In this document: positions 4,524-40,500 of the stretch, piece after piece
How the letters are laid out: the number at the start of each line of letters is the position of its first letter
How positions within the stretch are numbered: position 1 is the first letter of the stretch
Made by a program: the position numbers and the translations under genes
DNA from: Panagrolaimus kolymaensis
Taxonomy: Eukaryota; Nematoda; Chromadorea; Rhabditida; Panagrolaimidae
DNA length: 64,000 bases
Reading direction: 5' to 3'
Assembly: GCA_028622995.1 (NCBI GenBank)
Contig: JAJQJQ010000025.1
Span: forward strand, 2,728,001 to 2,792,000
The notes under the pieces: model-generated
What the model was told of the DNA's origin: nothing
Databases searched by the model: none
The model's input: the letters and a program-made list of their open reading frames with translations, nothing else

Positions 4524-5416
4524 TGGGAGCTACTTAAAAAAACAAAATTTACTAGAGAATAAAAACTCAAACGGAGCATTCTTTTTTTTCTTGCTATCTT
4601 GATGTTGTTGAAAAGGAAAAAAAATAAACAACGATTTTTATGGGGGAAGAAATTATATTTTTTGCTTTTTATATTCCTTTATAAAAAAATTATTTCTTTG
4701 TTTTTCTATTCATAAGCAAGGGTTGATCAATAAATTCATGGTTGATATTAAAAAAAAAACAGATGCTGCACAAACCACATCAGGCTTTAGCGCTTTTTTC
4801 AGGAGACCTAACATTAATTTTTTTTACAACTAAAACGGAATAAATTTTAATTTTCGTGAATAGTAAAATAAAAAGTTAAAGGAAATTTTTTTGTGCGTTT
4901 CTTGACATATTTATGGAAAGGCAAAAAAAAAAGCAACCAACTTTTTTCAGTAAAGGTTGTGATGTTTTCAAAATATGGATAAAGCTGTCATAGAGAGAAA
5001 GGTGTCAAAGAAAAAAGATTATGAAATGAAAGAAATGAAAGAACCATCTGCTATGTTTGACCTTTTGCTTCTTTCCTTTTTTCACACTCACTTTCAACGA
5101 ACTTTTATTCAATGCAAAAAAAAGAAAGGAAATAAAATAACAAAATATCATTGTTTTCAATTTTTGATTTCCGCTGACAACTTTTTGGTAGAAAAGTTTT
5201 TTATCTTTTATTTTTTTGAATATTTCAAAGGCGCATTTTTATTTTATTTTTCTTTAAAATTGTATTAAATCGATAAATAAAAATTTGTTAAAAGTTGCAA
5301 AAAAGAATTTTTCATAAAGAATACTTTATTTTTTTCCAGTAGCAAAACATCAATTTTTAGAAAATTAACTTTTTTCTAGATTGTTTAGTAATTACTTGTT
5401 TTTTTTAAATTAAAGT
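4524..5416. other. Intergenic
   Basis: AT-rich, poly-A/T-rich spacer between two SRH genes. The ORF at 4975-5268 is Lys/Phe-rich low complexity with no recognisable family. No other signal seen. Confidence 0.5.
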
Positions 5417-6497
5417 ATGGCAGAAGCGGAAAATATTAATTCTACTGAAATTTTCAATCAAAGTTTAATTTCAAGTATTTTATATATTTTTGAAGCAATT
5501 TCAATCATTTCCATTTTGTTTAGTATAATTTTAATTATAATTATAATAACAAAAACTCCAAAATCAATGAAAAGTTTTAAAATATTTTTACTTCTATATG
5601 CATTCGTATCATTATTATTTGAAATTACTTTTGCATTATATTTTCCAATTGCCCTTCATCCCTTTGCTTTTCTCTATCCTGCTGGAATAGCAAATCAATG
5701 GTCGCCAAATGCTGCATTAACATTATTATTATTTCTTGCTTATATTGCGATGACCTTAATGGATTGTTGCTTAGGAATGGTAACGGAACGCTTTTTTGCA
5801 ATGCATTCAAGCGTTCATTCAAAAAAAACCATTGATTATTTTTGGAATTTTTGCTTTTAGTAGTTTTTGCTTTTTTTCTATTTCTTTGACATTTATTTAT
5901 AATGAATCTTGGAAATACAAAATTTTTTTACATTCATATGAAATTGAAAATATTCTTGTTAAACATTTTATTAAAGTTCCTATCAATATTAATAATGTTA
6001 TTGGAATTGGTGGAACAATCCATACATTTCCATTACCTATATTATGTGTTGGAATCTTTGGTAGTGCTCGAATTGTTATTATAGTTATACTTTTAATACT
6101 TAATGCAGTGAAATCAAAAAATCTTGGATCTACGATGTCACAACGTCTTCAATTAAAAAACAAGATGCTTCTTCGAGTCACGTATACCCAATTTTTTGGG
6201 TTCGGTTTTCTCTTAAGTGGCCCGATGTTTGTCATGGTTATAATTTATGTTTTAGTTAAAGAACCAAGTAGTCAAACTTTTTTCTTCTGCGTTGGAATTA
6301 TAAATTGTTTTGGCTTATATGATTCTATTGCAACCGTAATCTTTATTAAACCTTATTATGATTTTTTTACGAGATGTATTAAATTTGTTTATAACTATAG
6401 GAATTTACAAATTGTTTCACCTATTTTAAGTGTAACAACTAGAAGAGCATCGTCAATAAATCTTAATTTCATAAACTATCGACTAGCGAGAACTTAA
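5417..6497 (+). pseudogene. SRH-type chemoreceptor with one-base frameshift in an A8 run
   Basis: A single-exon SRH-like receptor of about 360 codons. The first part (5417-5860) contains TM1, the TKTPKSMKSFK signature loop, TM2 and TM3 ending in ERFFAMH. The rest (to 6497) is in the next frame and carries TM4 to TM7, a long third loop with SQRLQLKNKMLLR, and IKPYYDFF near TM7, where SRH proteins have PYR. The switch falls on eight consecutive A at 5821-5828; seven A would give one uninterrupted receptor. The length is right for the family, and the rest of both halves looks selectively maintained, so this may be a very young null allele or a homopolymer error in the assembly. Confidence 0.75.
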
Positions 6498-28097: not shown

Positions 28098-29635
28098 TTA
28101 ATGTTCAAGTTTTGAAGGCAAAGAAGAAATTTTCAGCGCTTGATCAAGGTCTTCGATGAGGTCATCTTTATCCTCGAGTCCAACGGAAAGTCGAATAAGA
28201 TTATTTGTGATCCCAACTTTCACCCGATCTTCTTCTGGAACCTGTTCATGCGTCATCAATGCTGGTATGGCTGCATATGATTCTGTAGCGCCTAGAGAGA
28301 CTGCGAGAGCAATAACCTATAAAATAATCGAATTAAAAGTCATGTTGATAAAAAAAACTTTCTAACCTTTAAATGTTCCACAAAAATTTTGGATTCTTTT
28401 AATCCACCTTTAATGTAAAAAGCAACCATTCCACTCATTCCAGTAGTTTGCTTTTTGTGAATTTCATGTTGTGGATGAGATTCCAAAGCGGGGTATAAAA
28501 TTTTTTCAACGCATTCGTGAGTTTCTAAAAACTTTGCTACAGCCAAAGCATTTTCAAAATGAGTTTTCATTCGAACATGCAAAGTTTTTATTCCTCGAGT
28601 AACTAAATAACAATCAAATGGGGAAGGAACTGCACCAGCAACTTTTTGCATCCGTGTTAGGTGTTCACCGAGAGCTGGATCATTTGTTACAGCAGCTCCC
28701 ATGGTTACATCCGAATGGCCATTAATATATTTGGTGAGTGAATGAATAACGATATCCGCGCCAAGTGAAAGTGGATTCTAAAAAAAAAAAAAAATTTCTT
28801 TTGCAAAAACAAAAGTTATAAAAAAAATTTCCATAAAGTATGCTAAATTTTTAAGAACAAAAAGAAGTCACTTGTTTTTTTTCTTGTTTTCAAGAAAAGT
28901 ATGTTTTTAAATTCAAAAAGCTATCCGCATAAAAAATCTATAACTTACTTGAAAATAAGGTGACATGAATGTGCTATCAGTTACAACAATAATATCTTTA
29001 TTGTAGCGTTTAGCAATTTTAACTGCTTCGGCAATATCGACTAATTTTAGCAATGGATTTGAAGGGGATTCAAACCATATCATTCTTGTTTTAGGCTTCA
29101 TTGCTTTTTTAAGATTTTCAAGGTTTGTAAAATCAATAAAATCAACAGAAAGTCCATGGTGAGAAGCGCTAACAGTTGTTAAATATTCATATGTTCCTGA
29201 AGAAGAAAAAACTTTATTCACGGCAAAACAAGAAAACAAATTAATTCTAACCTCCATAAACATTATCAGCACAGATAACATGATCGCCAGTTTTTAAAAT
29301 ATTGATGGTGGACATAACTGCTGCCATACCACTGCCAAATGTTGAACCTTAAATTGACTCATTCACTTAAATAAAATTTTGTTTCATATTTTGTTTCATA
29401 AAAGCTTACAATATTTTCTACCTTCCAAAGCTGCTAGATTTTCTTGAAGGACATCTCGAGATGGATTCCCACATCTTGAATATTCAAATGATTTGCAAAC
29501 GCCCGGATGAATTTGTTTAAAAGTAGTGGAAAGAGTAATTGGAGGTATAATTTCGTTTGACTTCCATTTTTCTGGATCTTGTCCACTGTGAATGGCTTTG
29601 GTTCCAAATCGAGTATTCATGTTTGGTGGTGACAT
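28098..29635 (-). CDS. cth: Cystathionine gamma-lyase (copy 1)
   Basis: Five exons (29635-29410, 29347-29252, 29196-28949, 28777-28367, 28316-28098) close to 399 aa, the usual length of this PLP enzyme. It starts TKAIHSGQDPEKW as in animal CTH proteins. The PLP-binding lysine is in IHSLTKYINGHSD at the start of exon 4; YSR (active-site Tyr/Arg), VTDSTFMSPYFQ and the C-terminal IRLSVGLED are present. It cleaves cystathionine to cysteine, 2-oxobutyrate and ammonia in transsulfuration and can make hydrogen sulfide. In Y-C-S-T-F-G-S-G the usual small residues after the Cys are changed to S-T, unlike copy 2. Cytosolic; no targeting peptide. Part of a tandem pair in the same orientation. Confidence 0.93.
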
Positions 29636-30391
29636 TGAAAATTTGCGACTAAAAGTAAATTCTTCTTTTATTATTGGGTTATGAAAAAATTGCAGAAAAG
29701 CTAATTAAGATTGGTAAAATCAACAAACGAAAAATTTACCTGAATTCTTGGTTGATTTTTTCCATAAACAATGAAGAATATAAGCGTAAAAGCAAACGGT
29801 GACCATTTGCATTCATTTCGATTGTAAATTTATACACAAAAATTAATGGTTTATCTTATCAACAAAATGGAACAATAAAGATCATACAGATCGAAAAAGA
29901 AAAAGAAAAGACCAATTTGATTGCTCTTTTATTCTTTTAACCTTTTGGCCATTCGTTTTTTCGTCTTTCTTTAATTAATGTGACGATACCCAATAGACGG
30001 AAAAAATTTTTCTAAATGAGAAAAAGGTATATTTTTTATTATTATTAAAGTAAACCATAAAATCAAAGAGAGAAAAAATTTATTAGCATAAAAAAACTTA
30101 GAGTGGAATCAATAAAATTCATACATGAAAAAAGGAAGAAAGAAAAAAATGCGTTTGATTTATTATGTCTTTTTTCATTATTAAAAAAACAAAGCATAAT
30201 AATTTTATATAAAAAAAGTAAAATGAAATATCACAAAAAAGTCCATAAAAGCAACAACAAAAAATGTGTAACGATAAAATTTGGATTTTATGGATATTCT
30301 CGAGAAAAGGGACTCGATGTTGTAAAAAATCAAGTAATTATTTTCTTATTATCTTTTTCTATGAATAAAAAATAATATTAAATTTATGAGT
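29636..30391. other. Spacer between the two CTH genes
   Basis: Promoter of copy 1 and 3' flank of copy 2. The frame at 30103-30375 is Lys-rich low complexity and not a gene. Confidence 0.45.
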
Positions 30392-31842
30392 TTAATGAAA
30401 AGTTTGATTTCCAAATTGGGTAGTAAAAGATGCAATCTTCAAAGCTTTATCAAGATCTTCAATTAAATCTTCTTTATCTTCGAGGCCAACGGATAAACGG
30501 ATGAGATTATCAGTGATTCCAACTTTAAGACGATACTCTTCTGCCACTTGATCGTGAGTCATCAGAGATGGAATTGCAGCATATGATTCTCCAGCTCCAA
30601 GTGAAACTGCGAGGGTAAAAATCTGAAAAATTTATTTTATCATAGTCAATTATTTTAGATTTTACCTTTAAATGTTCCACAAAAATTTTGGATTCTTTTA
30701 ATCCACCTTTAATGTAAAAAGCAACCATTCCACTCATTCCAGTAGTTTGCTTTTTGTGAATTTCATGTTGTGGATGAGATTCCAAAGCGGGGTATAAAAC
30801 TTTTTCAACGCATTCGTGAGTTTCTAAAAACTTTGCTACAGCCAAAGCATTTTCAAAATGAGTTTTCATTCGAACATGCAAAGTTTTTATTCCTCGAGTT
30901 ACGAGATAACAATCAAATGGGGAAGGAACAGCGCCAGCAACTTTTTGCATTCGAACAAAATGCTTTCCAATGATAGGGTTGTTTGTGATTGCGGCACCCA
31001 TACAAACATCAGAGTGTCCATTGATGTATTTGGTAAGTGAATGAATAACAATATCAACGCCAAAAGAGAGGGGATTCTAAAATGCAAAAGTAATAACTAA
31101 ACATTTTTTTTAAATAATAAATTGCTATTTTGAACCAACAACTTTTTTGACGTATGCACTTACTTGAAAATACGGCGACATAAAAGTACTGTCAGTTACA
31201 ACCAAAATATCTTTATTATAATTTTTCACAATTTTAACAGTTTCATCAATGTCGACTAACTTCAAGAGAGGGTTGGAAGGAGATTCAAAATGGACCATTC
31301 TTGTTTCAGGTTTCAAAGCTTTTTTTAAATTTCCGAGATCAGTGAAATCAACGAAATCGACTACTAATCCATGTTGAGGAACACTGATGGTAGTCAAATA
31401 TTCGTATGTTCCTAAAAAGTTTGCATTCATTGTGAAAATGAATTTGTGACAAGTCTAACAAACCTCCATAAACATTATCAGCACAAATAACATGTTCCCC
31501 AGTTTTTAAATAGTTTACAGTTGACATTACTGCTGCCAAACCACTACCAAATGCGCAACCTTAATGGATTCTTATTCCTAACAGATATTTCACGCTTAAC
31601 ACAAAAAAAAACTTACAATACTTTGCTCCTTCCAAAGTAGCTAAGTTTTCTTGCAAAATATCTCGAGATGAATTACTAATTCTTGAATAATTATGAGCTT
31701 TATATTGCCCAGGATGTGTTTGTTTAAAGGTAGTGGAAAGAGTAATTGGAGGTATAATTTCGTTTGACTTCCACTTTTCTGGATCCTGGCCGCTGTGAAT
31801 GGCTTTAGTTCCAAATCTTGTATTCATATTTGGTGGAGACAT
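30392..31842 (-). CDS. cth: Cystathionine gamma-lyase (copy 2)
   Basis: Five exons (31842-31617, 31559-31464, 31411-31164, 31076-30666, 30622-30392) close to 403 aa. The first four exons have exactly the same lengths as in copy 1 (226, 96, 248, 411 nt), so the genes arose by tandem duplication. The active site is complete, including the PLP Lys in the exon 4 segment and the conserved AKYC-C-A-F-G-S-G segment. The C-terminal exon differs (ITDNLIRLSVGLEDKEDL, longer tail). In the YSRxxN region this copy reads YSRISNSSRD where copy 1 has YSRCGNPSRD; the conserved Gly-Asn-Pro is changed, which might alter substrate handling. Exon 4 is almost identical to that of copy 1 over a defined tract (see findings). 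Confidence 0.92.
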
Positions 31843-32796
31843 TGTGCAACTAAATATTATTTTATTAAAAAGTTTTTTTTATTATCTTAAATTATGAGAA
31901 CATTCACGAATTACGAGGTGAATGAATCAAAAGAAATGAGAAAAACTAAAACTTTGAAAGAAAATGATATTTCAACGACACTGTCTCATTAATAAAGAAA
32001 CCAAACACAAAAAAGACGATAATGGTTTGATTGAATGATAGAAAAGAAGAATAACTTGCAAAGAAAAACGATACCACAACTTTTGACTTTTGATTGATGT
32101 GCTTTTTCTTCTTTATTTTTTTTTTTTTTTGCAAAATGAAGGTTTGCGAATATATGTGATTTTTTTTGGTATCGCAAGTAGCTGCAAAAAATTGATAAGT
32201 GCAGAAAAGGCTGTGATAGAAATAAAAATCAACTAAGTTCAGATCCATGAAATTTTTCACAAAATTTATTATTTTCTCGTAAAGGCTCGAGCAACCATCC
32301 ACCGATAATTGAATGTCCATTAACTTTCTGATCACACATGCGCATTGGGTACCTTTGGGTACCTTTTTAGGTAGCCTATAGGCAGCAGGCAGCACCACTT
32401 TTTTGAAATTTTAAAACTCTTTGTCAAAGTTTTATATGGATCAGTTTAAAAAAAGAAAAAAGTGTCCCACAAAGTTGAGAAAAATTTTTTTTGTTTCTTT
32501 GCGGTTGATCTTTTTTGTTTTCACATTTTGCTTTTGCAAAATATATATCTCTAAATGTTAGGCATTAACTTTAAGCAACAACATATAAGTTTTAATAAAA
32601 AAAATTATTAAAAAAAGAGTTAACTTTGAAGAAATTGCTTAAAATAAAATTTTTAAAATCTTATTAAAAAGACCACAAAGTGCTTTACTAATCTATCGTT
32701 TATTTTTATTTTTTATGAGATGAGATGTTTGCCAAAAATAAACTTGATAAAATTTTTATTTATTGAAAGTAATGGAAATGAGTTAGTTATCTTTAA
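31843..32796. other. Upstream region of CTH copy 2
   Basis: AT-rich. Contains a small cluster of short direct repeats around 32344-32390 (GGTACCTTT twice, GCAGCAGGCAGC). The frame at 31946-32398 has no family motif and is rejected. Confidence 0.4.
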
Positions 32797-33029: not shown

Positions 33030-33698
33030 GTTGAATTGCTTTACAAACAACGTAAAAAAGTACATTTAATTTTTTGGCTTTGCGTTCTTTTATTTTACAT
33101 AAAAAAAATTAATTTAAATAATTTAGCAAAAAAATATGAAATAAACACTTTTTCGTTCAAGAATTTCAACGTTTTTTGAATATTTTGTTTCTAAATTTTT
33201 TTACACATTTTGTAAAAACGAATTATATGATTTTCTATCTATAATTTTAAACACTTAAAATGAATTAAATAGAAGATCAAGACGCAATGAAGCACAAAAA
33301 GTCATAAACAGATTGTTCATGGACAAATGATGTCCGGTCGAAATTTGTATGAACTACATGCACCAGAAACCTTTATGGTTGTCATTTATAAAGGAGGAAT
33401 GAAAGTAGCCCTTGAAGCCATGCTCATTAAAAACAAAGTTGAATTTGAAAATTAAAAATTTTCCAATAACGAATGCTTTTTGGCGTTGTTTTTCTTTTTT
33501 GCCAAAGCGCATTTTTTTTATCAAACTTTTTCCACCTTGAATTTGTGAATCCATTCATTAGCATATATTTCGTTCCATAATTCATTTGTACATATTATCT
33601 TTTCGGCTATTTGAGAATATATTTCGCCCACTTTATTATTTTTTTTGGTCAAAAAATAGTATCAATTGGATATTTCTTTCAGAAAAATTTGATATATC
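33030..33698. other. Intergenic, upstream of the ARM-repeat gene
   Basis: AT-rich, no coding frame. A T-rich stretch ending CTTTCAG at about 33673-33682, 17 nt before the ATG at 33699, could be a spliced-leader acceptor. Confidence 0.4.
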
Positions 33699-35318
33699 AT
33701 GAAGGTTTCTATCCATTTATTTATTTCTTTTGCTGTTGTTGTTAGCTGTATTAATGAAGTTTGTTGCTTTTTAATTAAACTTAGACTTATTTAAATTTAT
33801 TTTTTTTAAGATATCTGCTAGCCATAAAGTTCTTCATAGACAAGATGCTGTTGATATGCCAGATGACTTCAACCCACTTAATTATTACAATGATGATGCT
33901 CGAAAAAAAATAATTACAAAAATTGCGAGTACAAATAATGAAGAAAAATTAAGCGCTATTGAATTGGCAAGAATGTTTCTATCACAACGAGAGAAATCGC
34001 CATATGCAGATTTTGTTGATGATGGAATTATCCCAATTCTCGTTAAAAGCTTAAACTCAACCAAGTAAGTTTACTTTAGTTCGCTCGCTTTATTATTAGT
34101 TTGAATTCCTGGAAAATGAGATATTTATGCAAACTTTTCAAAAAGAAAAATTCAGTTACAAACTTTACATAATTCCCTTAATTTTTCAGTGCAACTATCC
34201 AATGGGCAGCTACTTGGACTTTAGCAAACATCGCAATTCATAAACCCAAATATGCTAAAGAAATTATTGAAGAGAAAGCCATTCCATATTTCCTTAAGCA
34301 AATCCATTCTCATGATGTAAACGTTTCTGTGGAATCCCTTAGAGCTATCGGAAATATAATGACAGGAAGCCATAAAAGAAGAAATGATTTGCTTGAACTT
34401 GGACTCCTTCAAAATGTGGTTATAATTATTAGACCAAGAACCAATGAAGAAATTCTCAAAAAAGCATTATGGGTTATGATGATAATTTGTGAAAATGCTG
34501 TAAAATTTCCATTTTCAAAAACCCAACTTAAAGGAATAAGAGTAGGTTTGGGACCTTTCTTTTATCATCCAAATCCTGAAATTTCCTATTATGAATCTAT
34601 GGCAATGGTTTCTTTAACGGAAGGTGAAAATCAACAATATCAAATCGAATTTCATGAAGAAACTATTGGAGAATATATGGAACTTCTCGATCGTTCTGAT
34701 ATCAAAGTTCAAACTGCAGCTCTTGGAGTTTTAAGCAATATTATTAATGGAACCAATGCTGAAACAAAAATAGCCCTTGAAAAAGGAATTTTGAAAAAAA
34801 TGCCAGAATTATTAATGCATTCTGAAGAAGCCATTATTAAAGATGTGATTTTTATTTTAAGCAAAATTGTTCGAGGATCTCAAAAACAGACTTTTATGGT
34901 TTTCGAAGCCGATCTCATGCCTTTAATTATTTATCACCTCGCTCGAAGTTCTTCTATTGGAGTTCAAAGCTATGCTGCTAGTGCCATTCATTATGCTTCG
35001 TGGAAATGTACCAAAGAACAAATTTCATATATGATTGATATGAATGTTATTTGTCCATTGGGAAAATTTTTACTGAAAGTTGAAAAAACTGATCTTCAAT
35101 TAGTTCAAATTATTTTAACAACCCTCAATAATATTATTTCAAAAGATAAATCTCGAAATGAAGAAGTATATGAAAAATTAACCCAATGTGGATGCCTCGA
35201 AAATATTGTCATGCTTGAATATCATGAAGATGACGATATCCACGTCGGTGCATGGAGTGTTATGGATCCATATTGTAAAGGAAGTCACGGCACTTGTGGT
35301 GCAAGAAAAGGGTTTTGA
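33699..35318 (+). CDS. Secreted importin-alpha-like ARM-repeat protein (copy 1)
   Basis: Three exons (33699-33758, 33811-34064, 34190-35318) close to 480 aa. Exon 1 is a 20-residue signal peptide (MKVSIHL, then a hydrophobic core FAVVVSC). From about residue 50 the protein is an array of armadillo repeats with the importin-alpha register: FVDDGIIPILVKSL, WTLANIA, SHDVNVSVESLRAIGNI, then SNIINGTNAETK and near the end ISYMIDMNVICPLGKFLL and CGCLENI. Importin-alpha is normally a cytosolic/nuclear NLS receptor. Here the N-terminal importin-beta-binding domain is missing, replaced by the signal peptide, and the Trp/Asn ladder that grips NLS peptides is only partly kept. The inferred location is therefore the secretory route. 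A paralogue follows head to tail. Confidence 0.82.
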
Positions 35319-35827
35319 TTGGTTTATCTCTCAGGTTTTTACAATTCAAAAAATGGGTTTTCTGATTATGCTTTATTATTTTATTTATATATATTTGCTT
35401 GAATTTTGTTTTGAAATTGTCTGGTACAAATAAAAAACTTCTTTGTAAACAATGTCGACCGATTAAACAAATTTTTTGATAGTTTTGTTTTTTAAAAACA
35501 TGTTTAATTTTGAAAATTTTTATCAATCTATGATTATTTAATTGTTCCATTATTAAAAAACACTCCGATTAAAATTATTTTTTTGTGTTAAAGGCACAAC
35601 ATTTGGCTATGTTTAACCTTATTGCCAAAAGCATTTTACATAAACACAATTTTTTCAAGAAAAAAATGTTCATTGTCAACCTTTATTTGCCATTGTTACT
35701 AAGTTTTATATGAAAAAGAACTTCTGTGTATTGATTACTGATTTAAACTTCATACACAAACTTGTCTTATAAAAAAATAGGACGAACAAGAGTCTTATAT
35801 CTCAAAAAAATAAGAAGTGAATATACC
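35319..35827. other. Spacer between the two ARM-repeat genes
   Basis: 3' flank of copy 1 with AATAAA at about 35429-35434, then the short promoter of copy 2. No other gene. Confidence 0.5.
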
Positions 35828-37387
35828 ATGAAGGTGTCTCTCCAACTTTTTAAAGCTTTGGTTTTGATTATTTTTTTCTTTATAGAGGTTTGAATTTCTC
35901 AGTCTAGTTTATATCGACTTTAATACATATCAATTTTAAGATTTCTGCTGGCAATAAAATTCTTGAAAGGCAAGATGCTGTTGATGAAGACCACTTTGAT
36001 TCTCTCGATTATTATAATGACGAAGTTCGATATGTAATATTTACAAAGATTCAAAGTAAAAAGATTGAAGAAAAATTAGATGGTCTTCAAATGACACGTC
36101 TAATTTTATCACATGGAAAACATTCGCCATTTGAAGATTTTGTTGATGATGGAATTATTCCTTTACTTGTTAAAAGTTTAAATTCAACCAAGTAAGCGCC
36201 TTAACTAAATTCTTAGCTTTATCTAGAGTTTTCAAACTTTGATATATCTTTCATTTTTTAGCACAACTATTCAATGCGCGGCAACATATTCTTTAGCAAA
36301 TATTGCTTTTCAAAAACCAGAATATGCTAAAGAAATTGTAGATGAAAATATTGTTCCTATTCTTCGCATACAGATGCATTCTCATGATGTTAACGTATCA
36401 GTAGAATCTTTAAGAGCTATTGGCAATATTATCTACAGAAACCCTGAATTGCGTGACTATATGCTTAATCTCGCTATTCTTGAAAATTTACACGCGCTTA
36501 TTGATACTAAAACTCCTCTAGATGTTTTGAAAAAAGTTACGTGGGTAGTTTCAGTTATTTGTACTTCTGAAGCGAAGAAGTCACTTTCACAAGAATCGGT
36601 AAAAATTCTTATGATAGCTTTAAGTAATGTTATCCGCCATCCAAATTCCGATATTTCAAGTGATGCAGCTAATGCAATTGCTTCGATAACTGAAGGACAA
36701 AACAAACAATATGAAATCCAATTTGATTATATCTGGATTAAAGCTTTAATGAAGCTTCTAAATAGTTCTGATATAAATGTTCAAACTCCTGCTATGATGG
36801 TTTTAAGTGATATCATAAATGGCACGAACTCTGAAACAAAGTTTGCACTTGAGATGGGTATTATGAAAAAAATGCCAGAGTTTTTTATGTCATCTGAAGA
36901 ATCAATTATTAGAGATGCCCTTAGAATTTTAACGAGTATTATTGATGGCGAATCTGAATCCCAGACGAAAATGGTTTTTGACTCTGATCTCATTCCTCTT
37001 GTTATCTATCACTTAGCTCAAGGATCAGAAGAAATACAAGTCGAAGCAATGTGGGCAATATTTTTGGTTACAACGGTTGGTACACCTGATCAAATTTCAT
37101 ATTTTATCGATATGAATGTCATTTGCCCATTATGCAAATTACTACTAAAGAGTGAAAAAATGGATCTTACGATTGTTCACTCAATTTTAACAATATTTAA
37201 AAATATTCTATCAAAAGCTCCAAATCGTAATGAAGAAATTTTTGATAAATTAACAAAGTGTGGATGTATCGAAAAAATTAGCGAGTTTGAAAGTCACACT
37301 GATAAAGAAGTTAAAAAAGCTGCATTCGGTATTCTTGATTTTTATTGTAAAGGAACTCAAGATACTTGCCCTCAACATGGTTTTTAA
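35828..37387 (+). CDS. Secreted importin-alpha-like ARM-repeat protein (copy 2)
   Basis: Three exons (35828-35887, 35941-36191, 36262-37387) close to 478 aa. Exon 1 again encodes exactly 20 residues, a signal peptide starting MKVS with core ALVLIIFFF. The ARM array matches importin-alpha repeat by repeat: YSLANIA, SHDVNVSVESLRAIGNI, EAMWAIF, then TPDQISYFIDMNVICPLCKLL and a C-terminal CGCIEKISEFE with KAAFGILDFYC. The first Trp of the usual W-x3-N pair is Tyr here (YSLAN), and other ladder positions are also changed, so classical NLS binding is doubtful. The IBB domain is absent. Both copies share FVDDGIIP and KSLNSTN at the exon 2-3 junction. Role unknown. Confidence 0.82.
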
Positions 37388-37511: not shown

Positions 37512-40500
37512 TTAATTAGTTGCTGCAAGTACTGCATCATAATGAATTTTGTCAATGCACGATAATAATAAAGTTGGTCGAGCCAAATCAAATTGAGTGC
37601 ATTCACTCTCAGATGTAAATATTGATTCATTATATAAAAACCATTTGGCATCTCCTTGATTATTAAATATCATAATATTAACTTGAAATAAATTTGTGGC
37701 AGCATAGATCTCGCATTCTTGGAGGGGTGTTTCCATATCTGAAGCATTCATATTAGAAATTTCTGTTTCATAAGTTGAATCTTAAAATTTTTAGTAAATA
37801 AAGTTTTAGAGGCAAAAAAAAGTTAGACTTACAAAATTTTTGTGGAAGTGTAAAAGCAATAATATAATTATAAATTATCTTTCTGATAATTTCATGGTTT
37901 TCTTCATCACCCGTAAGAAGATAAGCAAGAGCTCGATAACCAGAATTTAAATCATTCTTAATTTTCTTTGTCAATAAGATTGTTTTACCTAGAACAATTT
38001 TTTCATAATAGAGTTCTAATCCACTGTAAACATAGTTTTTTAACTCCATTTCGTGGATAACGCAAAAATTAATTAAAAAATCTTGGGTAGGATAACGATA
38101 TGGCCAATCAACATGATCGAAAGTGGTCATAACATCTTCTTGTCCTTCAATCAAATATTTTAACCATGCAGGATTGTTATCATTTACAAAATCATTTCGA
38201 GGTTTCTTTGAATCAATCTCTTCAAAATTTTCATTATAATTATAAATAATGGCGTCATTACATTTTTTTATCATTTGACTAATACACCTTTTAGAAGGAC
38301 CGACATCAGGTTGATTGCAAAGTCGAGTTCTAACTATAGCTTTCCATTTACCTGCTTGCCATCCAGGTTTAAAAAATAATGTATAAAAATTTTCATCGGT
38401 TTCAGCAAGATCTTCTGCAAAAGAATTCATAATTAAGATCTGCTCAAGTGGTTCACCTAAGTTGTTTGATATTAAGTTGTTTTTCGATTAGAACCGAAAA
38501 CAACCAACATAGAGATATTCAAAAATAAAAAGTTTAAAATTCTCACCTTCTTCAACAACTGATAAAACAAAATCCATCATCATTCGTTGTTTAACCATAA
38601 CAGTATTTTCATTTTTTCCACAAAAAGCGCAACATTTGCAATGAGTTTTCATTTCATCATTGGTTTCTTCAACTTGATTAAATCTATATTCAGGTATTTC
38701 AGCAATTTTACCAGATTTTATTAAAGCTTTTGTGTCTGAAACTAAGACATTCCACATAGTAAGAGAGCCTCCCTAAAAAAAGAAGCCATTTAAATATTTA
38801 AACTTTAATGAGCTTTTAAATATCATTTAGGCATACCTCTCTTACATCTGCAGATGAATAAATTTCATCAGTTGGTTCAGATAAAGCACCTATTGGTGGA
38901 TGAATTCTTTGGGGTAAAAATGTGGTCGTAGTTAATTTAGGATTTTTAGCAACATTAATATCAACTTTATTCATCATAATTTTCGGGCAAATATAATGCA
39001 AATTACAATTCATCACATATAATTCATTCATTCTTCCAGCTAATTTGCAAGGTATCTCGCCTAAATAACTTCCATTTAAATTTAATCTTAAAACCATGGG
39101 TAAGCGATTCCATAATGCTTCATGCAAATCTCCATTTTCAGGTGAAAATTTATTATCTCCTAAATAAAGGCTCATAACATTCTCATTTTCATACATAGGA
39201 TGTTTGATAAATTCAAATCCTTCTGGCAGTCGGGTAAGATAGTTGTGATTTAAATTTAAAATTGTTATTCGTTCTAATTGATTAAATTCAGAAGTAATAG
39301 TTTCAATATGATTATGTTGAAAATGAAATTGAGTCATTTTCTTTAAATGTTTGATTGATCCAACTTCAGTGAGTTCATTGTTAGAAAAATTAATGTAATC
39401 AAGTTGGTCCGGAAGCTTTTCCCATGCAATTTCTTTTAATTTATTATTACTCAAATCCAAGTAGTTTAAAAACCAAAAATTTTTTTGAAAATCACATTTT
39501 TCTATTTGATTATCTGACAAATCAAGCAGCCTAATTTTTAAAGGTATCACTGCATAATTAATTTCCTAAATAATTAAAAATTTAACTCAAAAAATATTGT
39601 ATTTTTTATTTTATTACCTTTAAATCTTTTCCATTCGATGCATACTTGGTCAAACCTTTGCATGTTTTTTCTTCCATCGCGACATTATTGTTCGAGATAT
39701 AAACATTTTTAATTTTATTTGTTATGGCTTCCCAATCTATTTCCTAAATTATTTTTTTATTATTACATCTCTCTTTTTTTAAATAAGTTTGGTTAAAGCC
39801 CACAATTTGATCGAATTATGTAAATTTTTGTACTTACTTGTAATGTTTTAGTTTGAACATCCAACATCTTTAAATTTTGTAAACGTGAAATAGAATTTGG
39901 AACTTTCGTTATTTTGATATTTTTTAGATCCAAAACTTCCAGGCTTGTAGGTAACTTTTCCCATGGAATTCCATCATCTTCTATTTCAATATTTCCTTTT
40001 AAACTTAATTTTCTCAGATTTATAAGCTCTGAAATGCTTCCAGAAATATTGGAAAGGTTGTTGTCATCGAGTATTAAACAATTGATGCTTTTAGGTAAAG
40101 CTTCAAATAAATTGTCCGGGATTTCTTTTAGTCCGCACTTTGTAATCTCCAAAATATGCAACTTCTTAAGTTTCCCGACATTTTCATTAAAAATGCTCCA
40201 TGCATTGTAAGTTTCAAAAACATCCACATTTTTAAATGAAAGCAAAATTAAATTTTCAGCTTCAAACCAACGTTTATTAATTTTGAGGAAGGTAACTACA
40301 AAAATTTTAGATAAATTTTTATTTCATTGAAGACCTTCGCCAACCTGAGTCATATGACAATGAACGACATTCTTTGAAATTTTTGCTTTCTTCGTTTCTA
40401 GAAAAATTTCCTCCGGAATCAGGTTTAACTAAAAAAATTTTTTTCATGAATACTTTATTTAGAAAATTTTAATTAATCCATGTAAAACTCACTTAAAATT

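Follow-up and report, generated by a model that had tools for sequence, protein, structure and literature searches.

The window analysed here, a stretch of 64,000 nucleotides from Panagrolaimus kolymaensis, contains at 33699-37387 a tandem pair of genes (copy 1 and copy 2), both on the plus strand and placed as an earlier note on this DNA had placed them. In our splice models, copy 1 consists of a short exon 1 (33699..33758) encoding MKVSIHLFISFAVVVSCINE, which reads as the h-region of a signal peptide by splice model, hydropathy, and shuffle control; exon 2 (33811..34064), which encodes a probable cleavage site (ISA/SHK) followed by the first armadillo (ARM) repeat, with the importin-beta-binding (IBB) domain absent; and exon 3 (34190..35318), which carries the remaining ARM array and the stop codon. 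Copy 2 has the same arrangement, with exon 1 (35828..35887, MKVSLQLFKALVLIIFFFIE, a signal-peptide h-region on the same three grounds), exon 2 (35941..36191, probable cleavage site ISA/GNK, then the first ARM repeat, again with no IBB), and exon 3 (36262..37387, remaining ARM array and stop). The exon lengths, 60/254/1129 nt in copy 1 and 60/251/1126 nt in copy 2, bear out the approximate layout given earlier, and the motifs quoted with it (TPDQISYFIDMNVICPLCKLL, CGCIEKI, YSLAN, and RAIGN) were all found. Reading frames are intact and splice sites are good in both genes: all four introns are GT..AG, with intron 1 in phase 0 and intron 2 in phase 2 in each gene, and the spliced models predict proteins of 480 aa (copy 1) and 478 aa (copy 2), which are 51% identical over the aligned ARM region. 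The sequence TTTCTTTCAG at 33673..33682 (plus strand), just 5' of the copy 1 ATG, may by its sequence be a spliced-leader trans-splicing acceptor; TTTTTTACAG occupies the matching position in the C27 homeolog of copy 1, and a counterpart is not obvious 5' of copy 2. Among the neighbours, a minus-strand gene at 37512-38772 adjoins copy 2 and gave no Pfam match in the two frames scanned; a related frame adjoins the C31 homeolog of copy 1. Two tandem minus-strand genes at 28343-29704 and 30528-31878 resemble, by eye, enzymes of the cystathionine gamma-lyase type.

The importin-alpha origin claimed earlier for these genes was confirmed by phmmer searches of exon 3 against PDB sequences, in which importin alpha-3 was the top match for copy 1 (E = 7.5e-55; Pfam Arm 8.8e-20) and for copy 2 (E = 3.7e-56); sequence and structure comparison shows the ARM array of the window proteins to be homologous to that of importin-alpha and folded alike. 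The genome also has a canonical importin-alpha-3 gene (KPNA4 type) at C1:4959825, whose first exon encodes the IBB. Its ARM array is collinear with those of the window copies (33-36% identity over the ARM region), and its intron 1 has the same site and phase (phase 2) as intron 2 of nine models of the wider gene family to which the window copies belong and as intron 3 of a tenth (C5). None of its later introns is present in the ARM arrays of those ten models. The canonical protein has an IBB, 14 of 14 residues of the Trp/Asn ladder and no leader; in the family a leader is present, the IBB is missing, and few of the ladder residues remain. In a tree built without the N-terminus, a branch with support 90/92 has 14 family rows to one side; that support is below the starred threshold of the tool, and two long branches meet there. 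The tree built with the N-terminus gave the same split, with support 94/99. A protein database search returned three distant matches, each starting with an IBB-like stretch in the alignment. On these sequence comparisons, the family is taken to have arisen from an importin-alpha-3 gene: it retains the ARM solenoid and one of the introns of that gene, and the IBB-encoding 5' part is gone, with a leader exon standing in its place.

The loss of the IBB, also claimed earlier, was examined with the PF01749 profile, which gave 11 matches genome-wide at E values up to 0.01 and none at family loci. The erosion of the NLS-binding ladder holds as well, since only 5 of 14 positions (copy 1) and 4 of 14 (copy 2) remain in the alignment; in family branches outside the copy 1 group, 0-2 of the 14 remain. 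In both window copies and in the two homeologs of copy 1, Arg replaces the ARM3 Trp, which we take to be W184 of mouse importin-alpha; the ARM4 Trp, presumably W231 of the mouse protein, is retained in copies 1 and 2. According to PMC4548243, the double mutation W184R/W231R takes the dissociation constant of the major NLS motif from 2.1 uM to 690 uM. The role of carrier for basic peptides, once suggested for the window proteins, is unlikely, because the NLS pocket is what they have lost.

A search of the genome (265.84 Mb, 807 contigs) with copy 2 gave 55 exon matches, of which 30 were excised for a census comprising 27 family loci and 3 canonical genes, the remaining 25 lying outside it. Close copies of copy 1 occur on C24, C27, and C31, the nearest relatives being C27:2613489 (94%) and C31:1731117 (91% identity, ARM region), and copy 2 is on C24 only, with no counterpart among the matches on C27 or C31. 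The assembly is described in PMC10374039 as 266 Mb in 856 contigs, 49 of them mitochondrial, with three pseudohaplotypes, and the distribution of the copy 1 relatives over three contigs fits these pseudohaplotypes. The diverged branches of the family are C27:1389642/C24:1733259/C73/C143/C332; C24:1654078; C2:2463201; C31:2152351/C27:1900513/C24:2494935; the pair C73:354349 and 352937, with copies on C143, C746, C177, and C27; C5:5850383/C11; and C112/C357. Proteins of the C73:354349 type, at 256 aa, are shorter and lack the beginning of the ARM array. All these branches are located beyond the window. Searches with two other members returned mostly the same loci; the additions were an incomplete C5-type copy on C3 and further, distantly related ARM genes. 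A diverged ARM-like gene at 2319-3984 of C16:355000-359000, with the leader-like start MWRRLVCACITLISVASVTASS in the unspliced frame, adjoins another ARM gene and may be a further family branch. Arrays of TTAGGC are abundant in the genome (28,088 forward and 19,331 reverse matches); Meloidogyne is stated to have none in PMC10844300.

The first exon was described in the earlier note as signal-peptide-like, and four lines of evidence agree with that description: its hydropathy, the small residue where cleavage is expected, the shuffle control, and its recurrence among paralogs. In both window proteins an h-region stands at the N-terminus, and the putative cleavage site has a small residue (by eye, ISA before S or G). 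The most hydrophobic stretch of 8 residues scores 2.56-3.74 in 12 family models and 0.29 in the canonical protein; two of the 12 (C31:2152351 and C5) fall short of a 19-residue hydropathy mean of 1.6. Among 12 models for which the intron was measured, 11 have an exon 1 ending in phase 0; the exception is C5, with phase 1. A short hydrophobic exon 1 was found at 19 of the 27 family loci. The other eight are C24:1654078, which has an in-frame TGA ahead of the ARM exon; the second genes of four C73-type pairs (inspection covered C73 and C27); C11, with ATA at the position of the C5 ATG; and C112 and C357, where the loci are broken. That the two window copies have the same layout had been put forward as a sign of selection on the signal exon; by itself this argument is weak, because the copies are closely related, but the point gains from the same exon type in paralogs only 21-31% identical and from KDEL-like tails in several branches. 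N-glycosylation sequons were considered as a sign of secretion and rejected, as the canonical protein has equally many. Exon 1 of copy 1 (33699-33758) differs from that of the C31 homeolog at 20 of 60 bases, far above the rest of the gene, and intron 1 is alike by eye.

The main competing explanation is that these are cytosolic or nuclear importin-alpha variants and that the hydrophobic exon is an artefact of the gene models, translation starting in exon 2 or in some other upstream exon. Hydrophobic frames are common in AT-rich DNA, and dinucleotide shuffles of the upstream DNA yielded a signal-like exon 1 in 1-12% per locus; the real loci gave 11 of 11, a set picked for having models, in which homeologs are not independent and which represents six lineages when copies 1 and 2 are counted separately. 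A simulation of neutral drift counts against the leader: the 62% of runs that gained a stop were excluded, and of the stop-free runs 11-19% kept hydrophobicity at least as well as the real exon 1 of copy 1, which is not significant. At 7.70-7.71 Mb of C5 (C5:7700000-7709900) lie another two importin-like genes, in which no IBB was matched and no leader was seen by eye, so that loss of the IBB without gain of a leader does occur in this genome; the 3' parts of this pair are rich in basic residues, and it is probably a separate expansion of nuclear type. Against an artefact stand the recurrence of the leader in the six separate lineages and at the majority of loci, the lack of any IBB close to family loci, and the C-terminal tails described below, and we regard it as improbable. 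Secretory targeting of the family is, from its sequence features, very likely.

Tails ending in EL were found at 15 of the 27 family loci (KNEL at 3, HVEL at 5, REEL at 6, and HEEL at 1), and leader and tail occur together at 9 of 27; as background, such endings were seen in 4 of the 598 stop-to-stop frames of at least 40 aa in the window. On the tree built without the N-terminus, the EL tail requires at least two changes. KNEL, REEL, and HEEL also function as ER-retention tails. PMC5818367 reports that carboxylesterases with a tail of the form HXEL, HVEL included, stay in the ER, and that those lacking the tail are secreted. The window proteins have no KDEL-like tail and end in RKGF and QHGF. 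Their C-termini (copy 1, 35274..35315, plus strand, CKGSHGTCGARKGF; copy 2, 37346..37384, plus strand, CKGTQDTCPQHGF) each contain two cysteines, in alignment with a canonical protein that has no cysteines there, and the pair may form a disulfide. In two members of another branch (C27:1389642 and C24:1733259), the ARM array is followed by a strongly hydrophobic segment, with 19-residue means of 2.69 and 2.64. The region past this segment in C27:1389642 gave no trusted Pfam or PDB match; it lies at about 4801-5958 and 6365-6733 of C27:1386000-1395900, has 61 matches in the genome, its own copies included, which makes it a much expanded domain, and looks by eye like an Hsp70-type ATPase domain. 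The EL-tailed C5 member has eight cysteines between the leader and the ARM repeats (2829-3040 of C5:5847000-5854000), a stretch that matched no Pfam family and for which the best PDB match, at E 0.13, is not trusted.

The window genes could also be decaying duplicates with no present function. There are family loci that are broken or atypical (C112, C357, C9, and C24:1654078, the last with its in-frame stop), and copy 2 was seen on only one of three homeologous contigs; set against this, both window genes have open frames and sound splice sites, and dN/dS, calculated without exon 1, is 0.13-0.27 between homeologs generally, with copy 1 and its pair of homeologs at 0.19-0.27, and copies 1 and 2 compared with each other give 0.40. 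Decay is a distinctly improbable reading of this pair. Secreted effectors directed at another organism, an effector being one of the roles named as possible in the earlier note, and a parasite setting are not supported, since Panagrolaimus kolymaensis is a free-living bacterial feeder and the ER-retention tails on several relatives point to a role within the worm's own cells. For the XopN-type HEAT/ARM-repeat effectors, which are bacterial and rely on type III delivery, we know of no descent from importin-alpha. The window copies do appear secreted, and effectors such as XopN of plant-pathogenic bacteria offer a parallel as exported ARM-like repeat scaffolds (PMC4617103), but an effector role is highly improbable.

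The explanation we prefer is that a duplicate of importin-alpha-3 lost its IBB, gained a signal exon, and lost NLS binding, and that its descendants diversified into ER-retained, membrane-anchored, and secreted ARM branches. Sequence strongly suggests that the family proteins would enter the ER and that the branches with KDEL-like tails would remain in its lumen. One branch would be anchored in the membrane through the predicted transmembrane segment 3' of the ARM array. The window proteins are predicted to leave the ER and be secreted, because they have neither a KDEL-like tail nor a transmembrane segment. The ARM groove, released from importin-beta and from NLS cargo, would then act as a scaffold to which secretory-pathway proteins bind. 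Worded in this way, with secretion and the scaffold groove as its inferred parts, the explanation is in our judgement likely. The broader statement, that a lineage of nuclear transport receptors moved wholesale into the secretory pathway, exchanging its IBB for a signal peptide, forming the three branch types, and turning its groove to new clients, is one towards which we lean somewhat less firmly.

The nearest functional parallel is SIL1/Sls1p, the nucleotide exchange factor of BiP, with which the family has in common ARM-like repeats within the ER; we do not claim membership. SIL1 has four ARM-like repeats, there is no sign of common descent with the family, and SIL1 did not appear among the 50 structural matches listed or the 60 sequences listed. 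By analogy with SIL1, described in PMC7913895 as an ARM-like protein of the ER lumen that partners the chaperone BiP, the ER branch might have a similar role, but this is doubtful, and the ER branch bears on the window copies only through kinship, as they have no retention tail. For sorting, the parallel is with the carboxylesterases, unrelated enzymes in which one family is divided by its C-terminal tetrapeptide, HVEL included, into ER-retained and secreted members (PMC5818367). A literature search, mostly confined to papers outside subscription, found nothing on importin-alpha with a signal peptide in nematodes. Importin-alpha is a highly conserved adaptor of cytosol and nucleus, and the explanation given here, if true, would mean that a peptide-binding solenoid can be relocated to a new compartment. 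It would also be a natural experiment for telling the ARM residues needed for NLS binding from those that maintain the fold, and the evolutionary steps should be traceable, since the family has several paralog branches and its homeologs lie on three contigs.
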